Positions 1-52,661 of a DNA stretch of 52,661 bases are shown in pieces. Origin of the DNA: a virus; the IMG/VR virus record IMGVR_UViG_3300017605_000425, positions 1-52,661 of that record; one strand, written 5' to 3'. The notes under the pieces were generated by a model that saw only the letters and a program-made list of their open reading frames with translations, made no database searches and was not told the origin of the DNA. The first letter of the stretch is position 1; every line of letters starts with the position of its first letter. The position numbers and the translations under genes were made by a program.

Positions 1-117
1 CAGCGTAAGCAGCAGCGTCAGCAGCGTAAGCAGCGTCAGCAGCGTAAGCAGCGTCAGCAGCGTAAGCAGCGTCAGCAGCGTAAGCAGCGTAAGCAGCGTT
101 AGCAGCGTCAGCAGCGT
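1..117. repeat. 18-bp tandem repeat, left end of window
   Basis: Tandem copies of an 18-bp unit, cagcgtcagcagcgtaag, with small variations. On the minus strand it encodes the hexapeptide Tyr-Ala-Ala-Asp-Ala-Ala inside the alanine-rich protein. The same tract is found at 52504-52661. It is a coding microsatellite, not a CRISPR array, because there are no spacers. Confidence 0.9.
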
Positions 118-2423: not shown

Positions 2424-3104
2424 TTACCGAATGTCTTTTAAACGCATAGGCTTATCATTAGCTCTATAAGCTCTAAGAGTCTCTTTAAGTTCCTCAATCA
2501 TCTTCTCTTCATAACTTCTACCCAGCTTGAAACCCACCACTAGACCGAATGAGTCATTATGGGACCTCCGAACATCATAGTTATCGAAGGCATGAACTTC
2601 CATCTTACGGGAGTCGAATAGACGAACCGTACCACCCAGGATGGTTTTGGTTTCACCCAAACGATGTACCTCGTCACTAAGACTATCTACCCGACTATTG
2701 GTAGCATTCAAGTTGTCTTGAAGCATTTTGTCTGCGTCAATACGGCTTGTAGTCTCTGTGGTTTGGTTGGTGTTAATGGTATCCAATGTTTGCTGGTCGA
2801 TGGTACCAGTCGCACCTGTCGCTCCAGTGTCTCCCTTATCACCTTGTATGCCCTGTTCACCCTGAACGCCTTGGATACCTTGTTCTCCCTGTTCACCTTG
2901 TGCCCCAGTCAATCCGGGGATAGAACTAGGTTGCGCCCATGTTCCAGCCGTATTCCCTGACACGCCATTGTAGTACAGGATATCACCTTGAACCGGAGAC
3001 TGCCCGGCTGTCAAGGTATCTGTAACGTTGTTGGCATTAACCACGTTTGCTTTTAAAACTAATGAGCCTAAAATTAGGCCCATTATTGCTGTATACTTTT
3101 TCAT
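2424..3104 (-). CDS. Exported collagen-like protein with coiled coil
   Basis: Residues 1-24 form a classic signal peptide ending ANVVNA, so the product should leave the cytoplasm. Residues about 64-101 are Gly-X-Y repeats rich in GEQGIQG and GDKGDTGATG, which fold as a collagen-like triple helix. A coiled-coil region follows (residues about 105-150), then a beta-rich segment (GGTVRLFDSRKMEVHAF, FGLVVGFKLG), then a charged helical tail. The plan recalls trimeric surface proteins or adhesins. AGAGGAG precedes the ATG. Collagen repeats are common in virion fibres, but this gene is in the leftward arm and has a signal peptide, so it may alter the host envelope. Inference. Confidence 0.75.
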   Translation of the reverse strand: MKKYTAIMGLILGSLVLKANVVNANNVTDTLTAGQSPVQGDILYYNGVSGNTAGTWAQPSSIPGLTGAQGEQGEQGIQGVQGEQGIQGDKGDTGATGATGTIDQQTLDTINTNQTTETTSRIDADKMLQDNLNATNSRVDSLSDEVHRLGETKTILGGTVRLFDSRKMEVHAFDNYDVRRSHNDSFGLVVGFKLGRSYEEKMIEELKETLRAYRANDKPMRLKDIR

Positions 3105-16320: not shown

Positions 16321-16395
16321 CGTACCTTAGAGAAACGGTATCTTGCCAGCCTCATAAGCTGGAGACAGTTGGTTCGACTCCAACAGGTGCAACCA
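16321..16395 (+). tRNA. tRNA-Met (anticodon CAT), CCA encoded
   Basis: The 75-base sequence folds as a full cloverleaf. It has an acceptor CGTACCT with AGGTGCA, D arm GAGA/TCTT, anticodon stem CCAGC/GCTGG with loop CTCATAA, variable loop AGACA, and T arm GTTGG-TTCGACT-CCAAC, ending ACCA. Position 1 C faces position 72 A, the mismatch typical of bacterial initiator tRNA. The three stacked G:C pairs of initiators are absent from the anticodon stem (one pair is A:T). So initiator-like Met is favoured, but elongator Met or lysidine-type Ile remain possible. It sits in the late transcript before the capsid gene. Confidence 0.85.
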
Positions 16396-32877: not shown

Positions 32878-33057
32878 ATGTCAAAACCAAAAGATGTACA
32901 AGATATAATTCTTGATGAACTTCGTCTAGTTCAAGCCGATGTTAAAACTATTAAAACTAGTGTTGATCAGCTTGAAGTGAAGGCTGGTATTTGGGGTACT
33001 TTATCTGGAGCATTGGCGGCTGTAGCAATTATGCTTGGCTTTCCAAAGTCACACTAG
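32878..33057 (+). CDS. Holin-like membrane protein (59 aa)
   Basis: AAGGA seven bases before ATG 32878. Translation begins with a charged coiled coil (VQDIILDELRLVQADVKTIK then TSVDQLEVKAG) and ends with one hydrophobic segment (IWGTLSGALAAVAIMLGF). This topology matches XhlA/haemolysin-type holin-associated proteins. It is near the end of the late arm, a usual place for lysis genes. Holin role is inferred. Confidence 0.6.
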   Translation: MSKPKDVQDIILDELRLVQADVKTIKTSVDQLEVKAGIWGTLSGALAAVAIMLGFPKSH

Positions 33058-35326: not shown

Positions 35327-35585
35327 AAGTTTTTGACTTTTTCCAGCCCTTTTTGATATGATAAGTAGAATTACTTGTTTTCATCACTATCAAGGACTTT
35401 CTCGGAATAACCTCTGTAACTAATGAAGTGTGCCAAGCTCCCCAACCTAAATGATCAAAGAAGATAGTGACATTTTGCCCAGGTTCAGGAAAGGTAGCAA
35501 CCGCACCATTCACAAATCGAGAATCAATTCGATTGTACTCATAATAAGTTGATCTTTTGACTCGTTTAATTTGAATTTTAACCAT
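35316..35585 (-). CDS. Hypothetical beta-rich protein (89 aa)
   Basis: ATG at 35585 overlaps the endolysin stop by eight bases (MVKIQIKRVKRSTYYEYN). Beta-rich with FPEPGQNVTIFFDHLGWGAW. Not recognised. Confidence 0.5.
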   Translation of the reverse strand: MVKIQIKRVKRSTYYEYNRIDSRFVNGAVATFPEPGQNVTIFFDHLGWGAWHTSLVTEVIPRKSLIVMKTSNSTYHIKKGWKKSKTYVD

Positions 35586-36018
35586 TATAGTTTTTGTAGT
35601 CTGGAATTTCAATATGGGGCCAATCTTTTATCGACTTCCAGGCTCCTCCTGACTCCAACCCGACTCCTTTAGCAATTTCCAACAGGCAATGATAGCTGCC
35701 TTCCTCCCATATAGGCTTTCCAGTCTGATTATCGAAAACCGTAACATCCACAGCCCTAGCTGGCATATAGTTATGTGCAGAAAAAACTTTATGCCCATCC
35801 ACATTAGTGACCACCTGCTCTGGATGCTGGACAACCCACTTCCCTTGAGTATCCATTGTTCGTCCTTTTTTAAAGAGTTCAAATTGTTCTTCAACCGAGC
35901 GATACACGCAGCTAAGGCTAAGATATTTTCCTGGGTTACGACTGATATACTCATTAGTTATAAGCTCCCAGACATCTCGAATAGGTTTAGCAGCATCTTC
36001 AATCCTTGGAACCATCAT
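35578..36018 (-). CDS. M15-family peptidase, probable endolysin
   Basis: 146 residues. SAHNYMPARAVDV (80-92) and WPHIE (133-137) give the H-D-H zinc set (H82, D91, H135) of VanY/T5-type L-Ala-D-Glu or D-Ala-D-Ala peptidases. It also has the conserved VYRSVEEQFELFKKGRT region upstream. It would cut peptide cross-links or stem peptides of peptidoglycan at lysis. No signal peptide, so it would need a holin. AGAGG precedes the ATG pair at 36018. Confidence 0.82.
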   Translation of the reverse strand: MMVPRIEDAAKPIRDVWELITNEYISRNPGKYLSLSCVYRSVEEQFELFKKGRTMDTQGKWVVQHPEQVVTNVDGHKVFSAHNYMPARAVDVTVFDNQTGKPIWEEGSYHCLLEIAKGVGLESGGAWKSIKDWPHIEIPDYKNYNG

Positions 36019-36280
36019 TATCCTCTTTAGATAGTATATCAGTAGTTCCGTCTTCTTTCAAGTACATAATCTTCCCAAAATTCTTCACAGAGTCCCGAAT
36101 TATCTCCTCTTTTGTTCGATTTGTCTCCATTACTGAGTCTACATACCCCATTTTAGCCATTTCAGCCAGGATTATGACTCTTTCTTCCTCAGTTATGGGT
36201 CTTCCATACCAAGACTCTAATTCTCGGACCATCTCAAAGAACACAATGGCAGCCTCACTATTCATTGTAAAGAGATACAT
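35999..36280 (-). CDS. Hypothetical protein (93 aa)
   Basis: Start at ATG 36280 (MYLFTMNSEAAIVFFEMVRE), two bases after the previous stop; a start five codons later is also possible. The earlier TTG lies inside the neighbour. Helical; has a WYGRPITEEERVIILAEMAK segment. Not recognised. Confidence 0.5.
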   Translation of the reverse strand: MYLFTMNSEAAIVFFEMVRELESWYGRPITEEERVIILAEMAKMGYVDSVMETNRTKEEIIRDSVKNFGKIMYLKEDGTTDILSKEDNDGSKD

Positions 36281-36282
36281 GA

Positions 36283-36459
36283 CTAAAGAACGCAATCCTC
36301 ATGTTCAATGACAACGATCTCACAATCACTCTTATTACATACCCAAACACTTTGATGAACACTTGAATGGATGGCAGAATACTCAAGTTGACATTTATGG
36401 GGTCTTTCTTTAGTTTTTGTTTTACGTCTTTTATTTTTTAATTGTTTTGGCTTTTTCAC
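36283..36459 (-). CDS. Basic Cys/His protein (58 aa), GTG start
   Basis: GTG at 36459 overlaps the stop of the zincin gene (GTGA) and has GGAAGG eight bases ahead. N-terminal 20 residues are almost all Lys/Arg. Then come HKCQLEYSAIHSSVH, WVCNKSDCEIVVIEHEDC, a likely zinc-binding nucleic-acid protein. Not recognised. Confidence 0.5.
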   Translation of the reverse strand: MKKPKQLKNKRRKTKTKERPHKCQLEYSAIHSSVHQSVWVCNKSDCEIVVIEHEDCVL

Positions 36460-36764
36460 TTTCTTACCTTCCTTTCAAGAATTAGTCCTGTACGACTTAG
36501 AATTCGGGGTATGGCTTCTTCCAACACCTCATGTTGTTCTTTTTCAGATAGCTTCTTTGAGGATATGGAGCCTATAATAAAGAACCAAAGATGAAGGAGT
36601 TCATGAAGGATGGTTTCAGAGAAGATATAGCCATCTTCCATAGCACTTTCTGATAAATAGATACTAAATTTACCTCGATTAGCCCTAGTAATCCCATAGC
36701 ACTCTTGCCTACCATAATGGATTCTCTTCCGACTCTTTATAGTACCTGAAAGGTTAATCTTCAT
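36456..36764 (-). CDS. Zincin metalloprotease-like protein (102 aa)
   Basis: Contains HELLHLW (residues 54-60), the HExxH zinc site, in a helix after ESAMEDGYIFSETIL, with a following acidic helix (EKEQHEVLEEAIPRIL). Resembles minimal SprT- or M48-like phage zincins. Coupled by ATGA to the secreted serine protease. Substrate unknown. Confidence 0.65.
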   Translation of the reverse strand: MKINLSGTIKSRKRIHYGRQECYGITRANRGKFSIYLSESAMEDGYIFSETILHELLHLWFFIIGSISSKKLSEKEQHEVLEEAIPRILSRTGLILERKVRK

Positions 36765-37504
36765 TTTTGTATAGTAGGACGTAGATTTGGTGATAAAGTA
36801 TGAAAAATAGGAGACATATCATACTCAGATAAAGCTTTTCTATTTTTTCTTAAAAAGAACCGAATTGAGTCCGGCCCTTGAGCTTGGGAAAGATGTGTCA
36901 GACTTGGCCCGACAACAGCTATTGAAATTGCACATCCAACCATTTCACCATTTTTATTGAAGACAACTCCGCCTGAATTACCAGGAAGAACGCTTTCATC
37001 CATAAAAATTAAGTCCCCAGAAAGACGAGCTACTTTCCCCCAAGATTGGGTTCCAGTTAAAGCCAAAGGCGACCCAAATGTAGAGATTTCTTCTCCTTGA
37101 CTAACTGAGGAGGCCATAACAAAATAAGGTGTACCAAGTCGATCAATATGAATTAGGGCCAAATCCTGCAATTCAGAAGAACTAATAATCGTGCCTTTAT
37201 AGGATTGATTATCTGATGTTAAAACTGTTACTGTGGCAGCTTCTTCAATACAATGTTTTGCTGTTATTAAATCCCCAACCCCGTCAATAAATCCAGCAGA
37301 GCAGACAAAATTCGATGCCGTTACTATAGGTTGGGAAGAAGTCTCGATATTTAAGTATTCCATAGGAGTTGTTTCTTCAGCTTCAACTTTAGTAATTCTT
37401 AATTCTGCAACTTTTGAACTAACATCTGCATAAGTTAAAGGAACCATTCCAAATAATAGAACAAATAATAATTTTTTAACTGATTTCTTCACTAAATTCT
37501 TCAC
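36761..37504 (-). CDS. Exported trypsin-like (S1) serine protease
   Basis: GTG at 37504 is chosen because AAGGAG lies six bases upstream; it gives a classic signal peptide (MKNLVKKSVKKLLFVLLFGM then VPLTYA). The mature domain has the S1 triad: TAKHC (H84), LQDLALIHID (D114), LPGNSGG (S177). Cys68 and Cys85 are placed to form the disulfide beside the catalytic His. The order matches HtrA/trypsin proteases without a PDZ domain. It would act in the periplasm or outside. Secreted serine proteases are rare in phages; it may process envelope or virion proteins. Confidence 0.85.
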   Translation of the reverse strand: MKNLVKKSVKKLLFVLLFGMVPLTYADVSSKVAELRITKVEAEETTPMEYLNIETSSQPIVTASNFVCSAGFIDGVGDLITAKHCIEEAATVTVLTSDNQSYKGTIISSSELQDLALIHIDRLGTPYFVMASSVSQGEEISTFGSPLALTGTQSWGKVARLSGDLIFMDESVLPGNSGGVVFNKNGEMVGCAISIAVVGPSLTHLSQAQGPDSIRFFLRKNRKALSEYDMSPIFHTLSPNLRPTIQK

Positions 37505-37514
37505 TCTATTCTCC

Positions 37515-37643
37515 TTATTTACTTTCGTCATTAAACATATCTAAAATTTTATCCACAGTCTCAACAATCAAAGAACTACAAACTAATAATACTAAACAAA
37601 CAAAACCACAGGCCACAGCTAACCCAAAGAGTCCATCCAGCAT
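37515..37643 (-). CDS. Membrane peptide (42 aa)
   Basis: ATG 37643 overlaps the previous stop (TAATG) with AGGT eight bases ahead. A single hydrophobic segment (LFGLAVACGFVCLVLLVCSS) and an acidic tail. Overlaps nothing downstream; the protease start follows within 11 bases. Function unknown. Confidence 0.5.
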   Translation of the reverse strand: MLDGLFGLAVACGFVCLVLLVCSSLIVETVDKILDMFNDESK

Positions 37644-38362
37644 TAGATCTTACCTGAAACATCGACTAAGACTTCTTTGGTTTGGGTATTAAGCTGAAGA
37701 ATGGCAAAACCCTTACGTTGAGGGGCATAATAAGCCTCATCCGCATATGATGGGAAGTCTAATAAACTGCCTGTATTGACAAGAGTCACATCATGCCGTA
37801 CTCTTTTACCTTGCTTATTAATATCCCAATATCCACGATTGGTTGTTGCTAACTCATGGGTATGAGAACAAGCACAAATATCGGCTGAAGGAAATTGACG
37901 CATAAGTGTAATAGCATTACCGAAGGTATTTGATCCCACTCCTGTTCCGTGCTTATAAGCAACTCCGTAATTAATTTTACCTGCTTTTACAACTGTAAAT
38001 CCTTGATTGGGATTATACAGCTTTTTAAGTCCTAAATTTTTAGCCAATTCATAGTCCATATCAATACCAGCTTCATGACGAGTACGATTTGAATGATTTC
38101 CTTGAACTAAGCCAAGGATCTTCTTTCTGATAGGGTAGAACAATTCTTCTCCATAATCCAACTGCTCTTGGGGAGTAAGAACTTGATCAAACATCATATG
38201 GCCTTTCTTTGGAATTACATTCTCGAAGTTATCAGATAGAAGAAGAGCAGCAGCATCATTCTCCTTAACAAAATCAACATATCGTTGAGCCATCTTGAGG
38301 TCTGCATTTCTATGTCCAATATGGACACACCCAAAAATAACTAAGGATTTATAGTTTTTCAT
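37643..38362 (-). CDS. Metallophosphoesterase-like protein
   Basis: Start at ATG 38362 (MKNYKSLVIFGCVHIG), with GGAG seven bases upstream, rather than the earlier ATG at 38383. Calcineurin-like motifs: GCVHIG (11-16), SDNFEN (near 43-48), GNHSNR (near 87-92) and CSHTHEL. In the first motif the usual metal-binding Asp of D-x-H is Cys, which could alter metal use. Related phage proteins are phosphodiesterases or phosphatases. Its proximity to RNA ligase and kinase-phosphatase suggests a role in RNA-end processing, by inference. Confidence 0.75.
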   Translation of the reverse strand: MKNYKSLVIFGCVHIGHRNADLKMAQRYVDFVKENDAAALLLSDNFENVIPKKGHMMFDQVLTPQEQLDYGEELFYPIRKKILGLVQGNHSNRTRHEAGIDMDYELAKNLGLKKLYNPNQGFTVVKAGKINYGVAYKHGTGVGSNTFGNAITLMRQFPSADICACSHTHELATTNRGYWDINKQGKRVRHDVTLVNTGSLLDFPSYADEAYYAPQRKGFAILQLNTQTKEVLVDVSGKI

Positions 38363-38615
38363 TATTTTTCTCCAAAAGAGCACTCACAACTTGCTCGGCA
38401 ATTTTAATTGAAAGTGCATTAATAATCACCTTCGGATCAACTTCGGCTAAAATTTCTTGTTGGTGCTGCTCAACATACTCTTTTGCCATAAAGTCAGCAA
38501 CAGAATTAACTATTTTAGAAATGACTTCAACCTTATTCACTCCACAAAGAAGATCGTCTGTAATACGGAGGATGAAATCTGTGGATGCTGTCTCGCGACT
38601 AACTGAGATTGCCAT
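38349..38615 (-). CDS. Hypothetical helical protein (88 aa)
   Basis: GAAGGAG precedes ATG 38615. Fully helical (LLCGVNKVEVISKIVNSVAD; FMAKEYVEQHQQEILAEV). Not recognised. Overlaps the phosphoesterase start by 14 bases. Confidence 0.6.
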   Translation of the reverse strand: MAISVSRETASTDFILRITDDLLCGVNKVEVISKIVNSVADFMAKEYVEQHQQEILAEVDPKVIINALSIKIAEQVVSALLEKNNEKL

Positions 38616-38653: not shown

Positions 38654-39007
38654 TTAGTTTTTCTTATGTGGACATTTTCCATAAAACCCCTTTGCCATAT
38701 TACAATTATGGCATAGCACTTGAAAACCTTTTGGATATTTATGCTGCTTAAGCCAGCTAAGCAAATAATTTGTTTTTAGTCTCCTACGTTGTTTTGCGCC
38801 ATTACCATTTATGTGGTCTAAGCACATAAATTCATAGGTCTTTTCTTTACAACAGTTACACTGTAATTTTCCCTTGCTATAGTGTAATAAAACTTCAAGT
38901 CTCTGAGATTTCCAGTAACTACGCTTACCTTCTAAAACTGCTTTTCTATTTACTCGTTGATAGCGTTTTAGATACTCTAATCGTTTCCAACGAAATCTAT
39001 ATGGCAT
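38654..39007 (-). CDS. HNH endonuclease
   Basis: 117 residues. CNCC and CHNC flank MCLDHINGNGAKQRRRL, the HNH core with a structural zinc site, and the protein is very basic. It resembles free-standing phage homing-type HNH enzymes. It overlaps the RNA ligase stop by 11 bases. Confidence 0.8.
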   Translation of the reverse strand: MPYRFRWKRLEYLKRYQRVNRKAVLEGKRSYWKSQRLEVLLHYSKGKLQCNCCKEKTYEFMCLDHINGNGAKQRRRLKTNYLLSWLKQHKYPKGFQVLCHNCNMAKGFYGKCPHKKN

Positions 39008-39896
39008 TTTCGAACATACTTTTTGCTAACTGCTCTTTGTAAAATTGGGGAAAGCCACCTGTAATGCCTCTACTAATCTGAGGCCATGCTTGTTTGAATA
39101 GTTCCTCTTTAATTTCCTCAGCCCTTTCTTTAAAGACATCTTGGCTAATCTCTTTAAGAAGAGGACCGATATCTTGGGGGGAGTTTGTAAGCTTCCCATC
39201 ATCTCGAAGATGCTGTATGGCCTTATTCCAGGTGGCTTCAGTTTTGTACATCAAGATTATGTTCTGCACACAGTCTTTATTACCTGGATTTGACTTCTTC
39301 CATTCAGCTCTATGATCTTCTTTAAACTTCTCACTAACCCATTTACCCATCAGGGTCTTTTTGTCCACAGCAAACTGATCATAGGCTTTGATCACGAAAC
39401 CCTCAATTTTACTTCCACCGAGGTACGAATCTTTTTCAAAAAATTCTCTAAGCTGATTGATATCTGTTACTTTACCTTGAAAGAAAGATGGCACAACTTC
39501 CAAATCTAAAGTTTCAGCGAGTTTCACTTTTTCCGCATAACTCACGTAATTCTGATCACCCTTATCAACATCAAAGATAACAATGTTATGTCGTGGAACC
39601 CGGCCATAGGTTATCGTATTATGATGTTCTCTAAAGAGTACTTCCCCTCGAAAAGTATAGTTTAGGGGCAGTAAGTGTCGAATTGACATTATATACTCAC
39701 AAGCCGCCTTGAATAGCTTATTTTCAATGGGTGGATATAGTCTAGCTCCTTTTGACTTCATTATCAAGCCCTCAGTTTCATACATACCAAAAGAGAATTG
39801 CGAACCATCCACTTTTTCTTCAATCAGCACTTCTGAATTAAAGAGTGTTTCTACACTCTTGTGGCCTAAATTATAAATAGACGAATAACTATGCAC
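38997..39896 (-). CDS. RNA ligase (Rnl2/RNA_ligase family)
   Basis: 299 residues from GTG 39896 with GGAGG about ten bases upstream. Nucleotidyltransferase motifs in order: EEKVDGSQFSFG (motif I, adenylated Lys 28), FRGEVL, KIEGFVIK (motif IV) and MGKWVSEKF (motif V). With the kinase-phosphatase at 40714-41571 it forms the T4-type end-healing and sealing pair that repairs cleaved tRNA. Joining of 3'-OH and 5'-phosphate RNA ends is expected. Confidence 0.83.
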   Translation of the reverse strand: MHSYSSIYNLGHKSVETLFNSEVLIEEKVDGSQFSFGMYETEGLIMKSKGARLYPPIENKLFKAACEYIMSIRHLLPLNYTFRGEVLFREHHNTITYGRVPRHNIVIFDVDKGDQNYVSYAEKVKLAETLDLEVVPSFFQGKVTDINQLREFFEKDSYLGGSKIEGFVIKAYDQFAVDKKTLMGKWVSEKFKEDHRAEWKKSNPGNKDCVQNIILMYKTEATWNKAIQHLRDDGKLTNSPQDIGPLLKEISQDVFKERAEEIKEELFKQAWPQISRGITGGFPQFYKEQLAKSMFENAI

Positions 39897-40230
39897 TTTG
39901 AGGTTCCTCCTGTTCTAGTTTCATTTTTTCAATCTGATTGATTTTATAAGTATCCCCAATGTCTGAGAATTCAAACTTTAAGTATTTGGCTACAGCTTCA
40001 GTTTCCTTAGTTCCCAAGAGAAGGTCATTAAACATTACTGCCCAAATTGTAAACTCTCCATCTTCAAAATCCCCATACACCGTAACTTCTTCTTGACAGA
40101 AAGCAGCTAAGCTATCAAATACTCGTTCTCTTTCTGTTTGAGTCATTCCAAGTCCTTTTAATTCCAATGGAGTATTATCTAAGAAGTTCTCTTTAAGAAC
40201 TCCATTTTTATATTGAAGATAATTTAACAT
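39889..40230 (-). CDS. Hypothetical acidic protein (113 aa)
   Basis: Lies between kinase and ligase genes; ATG 40230 abuts the previous stop. Helical and acidic (TQTERERVFDSLAAFCQEEV; EDGEFTIWAVMFNDLLLG). Not recognised. Overlaps the ligase start by eight bases, so the two are coupled. Confidence 0.6.
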   Translation of the reverse strand: MLNYLQYKNGVLKENFLDNTPLELKGLGMTQTERERVFDSLAAFCQEEVTVYGDFEDGEFTIWAVMFNDLLLGTKETEAVAKYLKFEFSDIGDTYKINQIEKMKLEQEEPQSA

Positions 40231-40404
40231 TTAATAAGACCCCATATAGATATCATAATTTGCACAAGCTGTATCCTGCTCAAAAAAGTAAACTTCTTTA
40301 GAGTCTTTTGGTTTTTCTCCATAGACCCTTTCTTTTACAACTGTACAATGTCCACACATAGGACATTCTACATGAGTAATTTTATACCAATATTTCTCTT
40401 TCAT
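40231..40404 (-). CDS. Zinc-knuckle mini-protein (57 aa)
   Basis: ATG 40404 overlaps the previous stop (ATGA). HVECPMCGHCTVV is a Cys/His zinc knuckle near the N-terminus. The rest is acidic and aromatic (KEVYFFEQDTACANYDIY). Not recognised. Confidence 0.5.
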   Translation of the reverse strand: MKEKYWYKITHVECPMCGHCTVVKERVYGEKPKDSKEVYFFEQDTACANYDIYMGSY

Positions 40405-40466
40405 TTTGAATGACTAGCCAAGAAAACCATTATGGCTGCTATGATATTAGCGCCAAGACCAATCAT
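40401..40466 (-). CDS. Membrane peptide (21 aa)
   Basis: ATG 40466 and stop 40401 both form ATGA overlaps. Translation MIGLGANIIAAIMVFLASHS then K is one hydrophobic helix. A start six codons earlier (40484) is possible. Low to moderate support. Confidence 0.4.
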   Translation of the reverse strand: MIGLGANIIAAIMVFLASHSK

Positions 40467-40714
40467 AGTTCGCAACTGAACCATATATTTTTTGGTTTCT
40501 TGGATGCTTTGTCTTTCCATCCATTCGTGTATGCTTCTCGTCTTACTTTGGTTACTTTTTCCTCAAAAACCTGAAATAACACACTATAGAGTAATTGAGC
40601 GTCATGTTCAGAATTACATTCATGAGTAAAATCCGTGGCCCAATCTCCAGCAAAAGGGATATGGTAAGAAACTTTGAATGTGACAATACTGCCTTTTTGT
40701 GTAATTTCAAACAT
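40463..40714 (-). CDS. Hypothetical protein (83 aa)
   Basis: AAGGAG eight bases before ATG 40714, which shares bases with the kinase stop (TAATG). Beta then helix pattern (GSIVTFKVSYHIPFAGDWAT; QLLYSVLFQVFEEKVTKVRR). Not recognised. Confidence 0.55.
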   Translation of the reverse strand: MFEITQKGSIVTFKVSYHIPFAGDWATDFTHECNSEHDAQLLYSVLFQVFEEKVTKVRREAYTNGWKDKASKKPKNIWFSCEL

Positions 40715-41571
40715 TAAAAATCTCCTTCAGCAACTTGTAAGCACGTCAATCCAAGATTACGCCACATCTCAACAACTCGATTTCTGTCATCAAATACACA
40801 GAAGATGTTGTACTTGCCTAGAATTTTTTCATTATAAATTTCTTGCTTGACAATGGAATCCTCTCGATGATCCCCAGTGGGCCTCATCCATAGAAAATCT
40901 CCATGAATTTTGCTGTCCTCAAACCATTGGAGAGTCATTCCCCTGTATGTTTCTTCGCGGCCAGAGACAAAGAGTATGACATAACCCTGACTGGATAGCT
41001 CATTAACCAAGGACACAATGGGCCGATTGGGTTTATCTGTATTGCATTTTTCCACATCATATGGCCCCCTAGCGACATGTAAAGCAACTGTCCCGTCAAT
41101 GTCCACAATGACAGCTTTCGGCAAACCAATAGTCCAATTCTGGACTTCTTTCTTTGGAGCTAGGAATTCTCTCCACATTTTCTTAATGACTTTCTCTCCA
41201 ACTGATTTCGGACGTTTTAAATCATTTTGAATGCACTCTTTTAATGGAGTATCAATAAACTTTGTTTCAAATTGAACAGGGAAAAGCATATCACATTGAG
41301 CAACAATCTCTTTAAGTCGTTTTTCATGCTTTGGATGAAAATTTGTATCATCCACTATGACGTTCCTATCATTATTTAAACAGTTAAAGATCAGAGCATC
41401 TCTCCAAATAAGAATTAACTGCTCATCTTTACCATTACGATAATGCCCCATCATTTCTCGAAGAATATCTTTATTAATACGGACCCATCCAGGATTCTCT
41501 TTACAGAATTGGATAGCCCATTTGCTCTTGCCAGAGCCAGGAAGACCTTTAAGCATGATTACTTTACTCAT
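40714..41571 (-). CDS. pseT: Polynucleotide kinase / 3'-phosphatase (T4 Pnkp-type)
   Basis: 285 residues, the T4 architecture and near the T4 length. N-terminal P-loop kinase: GLPGSGKS (9-16) and VIVDDTNFHP (71-80). C-terminal HAD phosphatase: VDIDGTVALH (156-165, nucleophile Asp157), VSGREETYRG (202-211), FDDRNRVVEMWR (260-271). It phosphorylates 5'-OH ends and removes 3' or 2',3'-cyclic phosphates, so that RNA ligase can rejoin broken tRNA. Overlaps the HNH gene before it by ATGA. Confidence 0.92.
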   Translation of the reverse strand: MSKVIMLKGLPGSGKSKWAIQFCKENPGWVRINKDILREMMGHYRNGKDEQLILIWRDALIFNCLNNDRNVIVDDTNFHPKHEKRLKEIVAQCDMLFPVQFETKFIDTPLKECIQNDLKRPKSVGEKVIKKMWREFLAPKKEVQNWTIGLPKAVIVDIDGTVALHVARGPYDVEKCNTDKPNRPIVSLVNELSSQGYVILFVSGREETYRGMTLQWFEDSKIHGDFLWMRPTGDHREDSIVKQEIYNEKILGKYNIFCVFDDRNRVVEMWRNLGLTCLQVAEGDF

Positions 41572-52440: not shown

Positions 52441-52661
52441 TTATTTTCTTCTATATTCTCGCCTAAAAGAATTAAAGCAAATTGACAAATTTGTAATTTA
52501 ATGTCAGCGTAAGCAACGTTAGCAGCGTCAGCAGTGTAAGCAGCAGCGTCAGCAGCGTAAGCAGCGTCAGCAGCGTAAGCAGCGTCAGCAGCGTAAGCAG
52601 CGTAAGCAGCAGCGTCAGCAGCGTAAGCAGCGTCAGCAGCGTAAGCAGCGTCAGCAGCGTA
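52437..52661 (-). CDS. Imm-5-like alanine-repeat protein, C-terminal part
   Basis: Continues the gene at 1-430. From 52661 leftward the frame is (Tyr/Asp-Ala-Ala)n, then a non-repetitive end (NVAYADIKLQICQFALILLG then ENIEENK) with stop at 52437. The stop overlaps the 3D-domain gene start (ATGA). The non-repeat C-terminus is helical and hydrophobic. Confidence 0.75.
   Translation of the reverse strand, partial: YAADAAYAADAAYAADAAAYAAYAADAAYAADAAYAADAAAYTADAANVAYADIKLQICQFALILLGENIEENK
52504..52661. repeat. 18-bp tandem repeat, right end of window
   Basis: Same 18-bp unit as at 1-117, more divergent toward 52504. Both tracts encode the same alanine repeat in the same orientation, which links the ends of the window. 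Confidence 0.9.

Follow-up and report, generated by a model that had tools for sequence, protein, structure and literature searches.

Gene content of the locus

The window, our term for the whole 52,661-nucleotide stretch of viral DNA analyzed here, an IMG/VR record of an uncultivated phage, carries at positions 36761 to 37504 (minus strand) a gene for a 247-residue S1 (Trypsin_2) serine protease that is predicted to be exported. Its stop codon overlaps the start codon of the next gene as ATGA, and this coupled gene (36456 to 36764, minus strand) encodes a SprT-like zincin of 102 residues with an HELLH motif and no signal peptide. Farther downstream on the same strand lie a 98-residue open reading frame (ORF; 35999 to 36295) and an M15-family endolysin gene (35578 to 36018), which is 742 bp from the protease gene. 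The endolysin scores above the cutoff for Peptidase_M15_4, matches PHROG endolysins, and resembles endolysins of Thermus and Bacillus phages. Directly upstream of the protease gene is a 42-residue ORF with a single transmembrane segment (37515 to 37643, minus strand), whose stop codon overlaps the protease Shine-Dalgarno sequence, followed by genes for a calcineurin-like phosphoesterase (37643 to 38383, minus strand; "DNA repair exonuclease" in PHROG) and an RNA ligase (38997 to 39896, minus strand).

The protease-to-endolysin genes form the end of a leftward operon that includes a primase/helicase, a DNA polymerase, a polynucleotide kinase-phosphatase (PNKP), the RNA ligase, and the phosphoesterase. 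This operon converges on a rightward terminase-portal-capsid-tail operon, so that the protease sits at the end of a replication-type operon and outside the structural one. A scan for promoters and terminators gave background levels, and a crude lipobox and transmembrane scan of the window revealed neither an Rz/Rz1-type pair nor a convincing lipobox spanin. The last gene of the rightward operon is a 59-residue ORF with a C-terminal hydrophobic helix (32878 to 33057, plus strand), which is XhlA/holin-like by eye and could be the holin. The RNA ligase and the nearby PNKP (HAD_PNKP and AAA_33; 38997 to 41571, minus strand) share one operon and form an RNA-repair pair like that of T4.

Three other features of the window were recorded. 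A 226-residue collagen-repeat, tail-fiber-like protein with a signal-peptide-like start (MKKYTAIMGLILGSLVLKANVVNA) is encoded at 2424 to 3104 on the minus, non-structural strand and is possibly a second exported protein. Within the structural operon, a lone tRNA-Met (CAT) gene (16321 to 16395, plus strand) immediately precedes the major head gene. The two ends of the window (1 to 100 and 52560 to 52661) are made of one and the same short repeat in tandem (CAGCGTMAGCAG...), with an identical end overlap of 64 bp that may reflect assembly through the repeat rather than show that the genome is circular or complete.

The protease and its coupled zincin

A sequence-only reading had called this gene an exported S1 serine protease with a catalytic triad, a well-placed cysteine pair, and a clear signal peptide, coupled to an HELLH metalloprotease-like gene and about 0.7 kb from an M15 endolysin. 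Our analyses bear out each of these assignments at the level of sequence. The GTG start at 37504 used in that reading is also favored, because it is preceded by a strong Shine-Dalgarno sequence (TAAGGAG); it is therefore a better start than an ATG 27 bases upstream (37531), which would give a 256-residue protein. Residues H84, D114, and S177 (in GNSGG) occur in the order expected of an S1 triad. The match to Pfam Trypsin_2 (PF13365; E = 6.3e-16, 59.8 bits against a cutoff of 27.6) places homology to this family far above chance. The NCBIfam Do-family profile also matched (E = 2e-16), but its 60 bits are far under the family cutoff of 416 because the protease domain alone is present.

Among proteins with solved structures, phmmer matched the protease to HhoA, DegS, and DegQ, and a profile built from five phage relatives matched HTRA1, DegQ, and DegP at E values of 1e-20 to 1e-24. 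The protein shares with these HtrA/Deg (S1C) enzymes the order of the triad, the GNSGG motif, and predicted export. It differs from them in scoring far under the HtrA family cutoffs, in carrying a cysteine pair around the catalytic His, and in lacking a PDZ domain, for which no match was found in the protease and for which only about 55 residues lie beyond the protease-domain match. For the double beta-barrel fold typical of S1 peptidases, an AlphaFold2 model built with five sequences as input gave a pLDDT of 41.

Residues 1 to 26 (encoded at 37427 to 37504, minus strand) have the features of a Sec signal peptide, with a basic n-region, a hydrophobic core at residues 13 to 23, and small residues at -3 and -1 (T-Y-A). 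The predicted cleavage site, TYA|DVSS, aligns with MKKLVGILLFLGAIQMAKA|DVT in a related phage described below, where the equivalent AKA|DV site ends a short classic signal peptide. Cys68 and Cys85, both kept in that relative, correspond to Cys42-Cys58 of chymotrypsin and would form a disulfide in a periplasmic enzyme.

The zincin carries the motif HELLHLW (H54-E55-H58), with the third metal ligand unproven. The HELLH motif and a short SprT-like match are shared with SprT-like metallopeptidases, but the protein has only 102 residues and its match to the Pfam SprT-like family (E = 2.3e-5, 24.7 bits) falls 0.9 bit short of the gathering cutoff of 25.6. It had no significant phage match besides the relatives of the window. 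Because it has no signal peptide, the zincin is probably not in the same compartment as the protease and probably acts in the cytoplasm.

Conservation of the cassette in related phages

Relatives were retrieved through terminase and portal searches, which gave one 50.7-kb phage and related fragments. In this phage and a near-duplicate contig of 19 kb, the protease, zincin, and endolysin are 66, 67, and 74% identical to those of the window and occur in the same order. The common arrangement runs from the phosphoesterase (92% conserved) through a similar small transmembrane ORF, the protease, and the zincin to the endolysin; the 98-residue ORF and the ATGA overlap are also kept. The relative's protease retains the triad, both cysteines, and the A|DV cleavage site. 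Since dS was saturated, we compared the protease pair by codon position and found differences of 0.65 at third positions versus 0.30 at first and 0.18 at second positions. Identity was also higher near the triad (34/39 residues) than elsewhere (112/182; P = 0.002). This pattern indicates that the protein is under selection and its active site is kept, and conservation of the cassette in a second phage indicates that it is inherited and selected.

G003, a more distant member of the group (portal 65%), encodes an exported HtrA-type protease in the same slot after the RNA ligase, and searches with two endolysin families recognized no endolysin there. Scans of IMG/VR and GTDB with the protease as a single sequence found no relative, nor did an alignment scan of GTDB, and megablast of the window against phages gave no match. 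The window terminase weakly resembles that of a Silvanigrella phage (27%).

S1 proteases across phage lineages

Profile and tblastn searches identified S1 homologs in about 12 phage lineages, several of them already annotated as "protease" or "trypsin-like". The sequence-only reading had described exported S1 proteases as rare in phage genomes; they are indeed uncommon among the 50,697 phage records searched, but they recur, so that rarity holds only in the sense of low frequency. We aligned 17 phage S1 proteins representing about 12 lineages, and every one begins with a hydrophobic export segment.

These proteins fall into those with a Cys...TAKHC-like arrangement (the window, L023, L027, L028, L030, Microcystis, Sulfitobacter, and RHph_I3_11), among which the triad residues are invariant, and those without the cysteine pair (the Rhizobium 16-3 type, T4-like Rhizobium phages, KZY1, LP.1, and G003). 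The size of the former group is biased, since TAKHC itself served as a search pattern, the first Cys lying outside that pattern. In NV1.1.1 and 16-3, GQSGA replaces GNSGG and the aligned Asp is not kept; therefore, not every phage S1 homolog need be a classical enzyme.

The S1 proteases of PHROG 9683 and 11383 (Rhizobium 16-3 p036, Sulfitobacter pCB2047, RHph, phiM9, and P10VF) resemble the window protein in being phage-encoded, 200 to 300 residues long, and equipped with an export segment and an S1 domain. They differ in their neighbors and in sequence (about 31% identity or less), and most Rhizobium members lack the cysteine pair. Also comparable are XAI96534 of Microcystis phage Mae-JY35, a "hypothetical protein", and the protein of the IMG/VR contig L030, both exported members of the Cys..TAKHC subfamily encoded shortly after an endolysin and an Rz-like spanin. 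Neither has a coupled zincin, however, and the L030 protein is only about 25% identical to that of the window.

Other phages were searched for a recurrent protease-zincin pair; Rhizobium phage RHph_TM3_3_14B has a coupled partner, but this is a membrane protein and not a zincin. In three Rhizobium phages (L032, L038, and L042), an ORF of 141 to 158 residues overlaps or abuts the protease stop codon; it encodes a multi-helix membrane protein in RHph_TM3_3_14B and is possibly a conserved partner. An exported S1 gene adjoins thyX in L051 (4177 to 5657; thyX by eye) and L034 (3905 to 5411; thyX annotated), making this a second recurring neighborhood. Unlike the exported proteins, a 333-residue S1 protein of L029 (5638 to 6639) lacks a signal peptide, lies beside an apparent type I restriction-modification gene, and matches RT-Protease_XI, making it a defense-type S1 protease.

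Proximity to lysis genes

Several of these genes lie in or near lysis clusters, in phages unrelated to that of the window. The gene order is amidase, Rz-like spanin, and exported S1 protease in Mae-JY35 and endolysin, Rz-like spanin, and protease in L030, the genes being consecutive or nearly so in both; in Sulfitobacter phage pCB2047-C, it is endolysin, holin, a holin/hemolysin-like gene, and protease. In the Rhizobium TM3/X2_25/NV1.1.1 group, 2 to 3 kb separate protease and endolysin. The S1 gene was within 1 kb of the endolysin in four of 11 lineages (Microcystis, Sulfitobacter, L030, and the window phage), with 0.63 expected at random (P about 0.0025), and within 3 kb in five (1.4 expected, P = 0.007), in a post hoc test of 11 lineages under a simple random-placement null.

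In the other seven lineages, the gene was not within 1 kb of the endolysin. S1 genes elsewhere were next to thyX, near head genes on the opposite strand (T4-like Rhizobium phages), or near unrelated genes. L051, found after the lysis idea arose, has its gene beside thyX and does not fit a lysis placement, and the same is true of RHph_I3_11. A role in lysis or at the envelope is leading but unproven, because four lineages near an endolysin exceed chance while seven others lie away. Of the roles suggested in the sequence-only reading (aid to lysis, degradation of surface proteins, and superinfection block), lysis thus draws partial support from where the gene lies in other phages. The protease is also not simply a substitute for a spanin, as two of the three lysis-cluster examples outside the window already have spanins.

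Possible roles of the protease

Sequence comparison assigns the protease to its fold family and shows that its catalytic residues are intact, that it carries an export signal, and that its cassette is conserved; its periplasmic location and disulfide, when it acts, on what substrate, and how it may contribute to lysis are inferred. In our leading reading, to which we give a probability of about 0.45, the protease would cut host envelope proteins during infection, weakening the envelope and aiding endolysin-driven lysis. Expressed along with the M15 endolysin from the far end of the leftward operon, this single-domain serine endopeptidase of the S1/HtrA type would cross the host cytoplasmic membrane via its N-terminal signal peptide. 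The mature enzyme would start near D27, be stabilized outside the cytoplasm by a Cys68-Cys85 disulfide, and be active there without PDZ control. Counted against a role in lysis are the replication-type rather than structural operon, the probably cytosolic zincin partner, the HtrA-type gene in the same slot of G003 with no recognized endolysin, and the scattered relatives.

Some of these same observations bear on an alternative that we rank next and consider somewhat unlikely, in which the protease mimics HtrA/DegS at a time when infection overloads protein export, and either clears misfolded proteins from the envelope or cleaves a regulator of envelope stress. Such an enzyme would work throughout infection and not at lysis. 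The nearest sequence relatives of the protease (DegS, DegQ, DegP, and HTRA1), the clearly HtrA-like gene in the equivalent slot of G003, and the replication-type operon all favor quality control or host takeover, but the protease lacks the PDZ domain through which HtrA enzymes are regulated and sense their substrates, and the lysis-cluster position recurs in other phages. Ranked third, and quite unlikely in our view, is a superinfection block through cleavage of a surface receptor or of an incoming phage's proteins, which is consistent with a soluble exported enzyme encoded by an accessory gene in scattered phages.

The sequence-only reading had named homology to a virion maturation protease with a retained hydrophobic segment as grounds for abandoning the export proposal. 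Maturation proteases are common in phages, and the S1 gene is close to head genes in T4-like Rhizobium phages, so a virion-associated or maturation enzyme whose hydrophobic segment is retained or serves as a membrane anchor was considered. We found homology to exported HtrA/S1 enzymes and none to prohead protease families, and the gene lies outside the head operon, on the strand opposite to the terminase-portal-capsid genes. The relative's short classic signal peptide (AKA|DV) argues against a retained segment, and phiM9 has a separate gp21-type prohead protease annotated beside its S1 gene; this role is very improbable. Least credible is a phage-borne anti-phage defense module of the RT-protease or Avs1 kind. 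PADLOC profiles for RT-Protease_XI and LmuA do match the protease domain, and the zincin is coupled to it, but these matches span the common S1 domain only, no reverse transcriptase or ATPase gene neighbors the protease, and the signal peptide argues against cytosolic sensing, the lone relative in a defense-like context (L029) having none. We therefore rejected this reading.

Envelope proteolysis that aids lysis thus ranks as most likely, ahead of HtrA-like quality control or host takeover and of a superinfection block. A broader proposal, which we regard as rather unlikely, is that exported S1 proteases are an unrecognized accessory class of phage envelope-breaking proteins that were gained several times into lysis clusters and would work alongside endolysin and spanin by cutting proteins of the host envelope. 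Part of this task may fall to the protease in the window phage, which shows no recognizable spanin.

Implications for phage lysis

Phage S1 proteases are already annotated in public records, and a survey of alphaproteobacterial phages names "a trypsin-like serine protease" in P10VF and phiM9 (PMC10783043). Our search of the open-access literature turned up no study that addressed what they do or whether they take part in lysis. The window gene is therefore a fresh example of a known, uncharacterized type, whose repeated export and partial placement in lysis clusters merit further attention.

The usual account of lysis in Gram-negative hosts invokes holin, endolysin, and spanin. A contribution from exported proteases, if real, would add one more enzymatic activity. 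The question is approachable in culturable phages, among them Sulfitobacter pCB2047-C, Microcystis Mae-JY35, and the Rhizobium RHph phages. Even if the role in lysis proves false, the recurrence of the export signal still suggests that extracytoplasmic proteolysis has repeatedly benefited phages.
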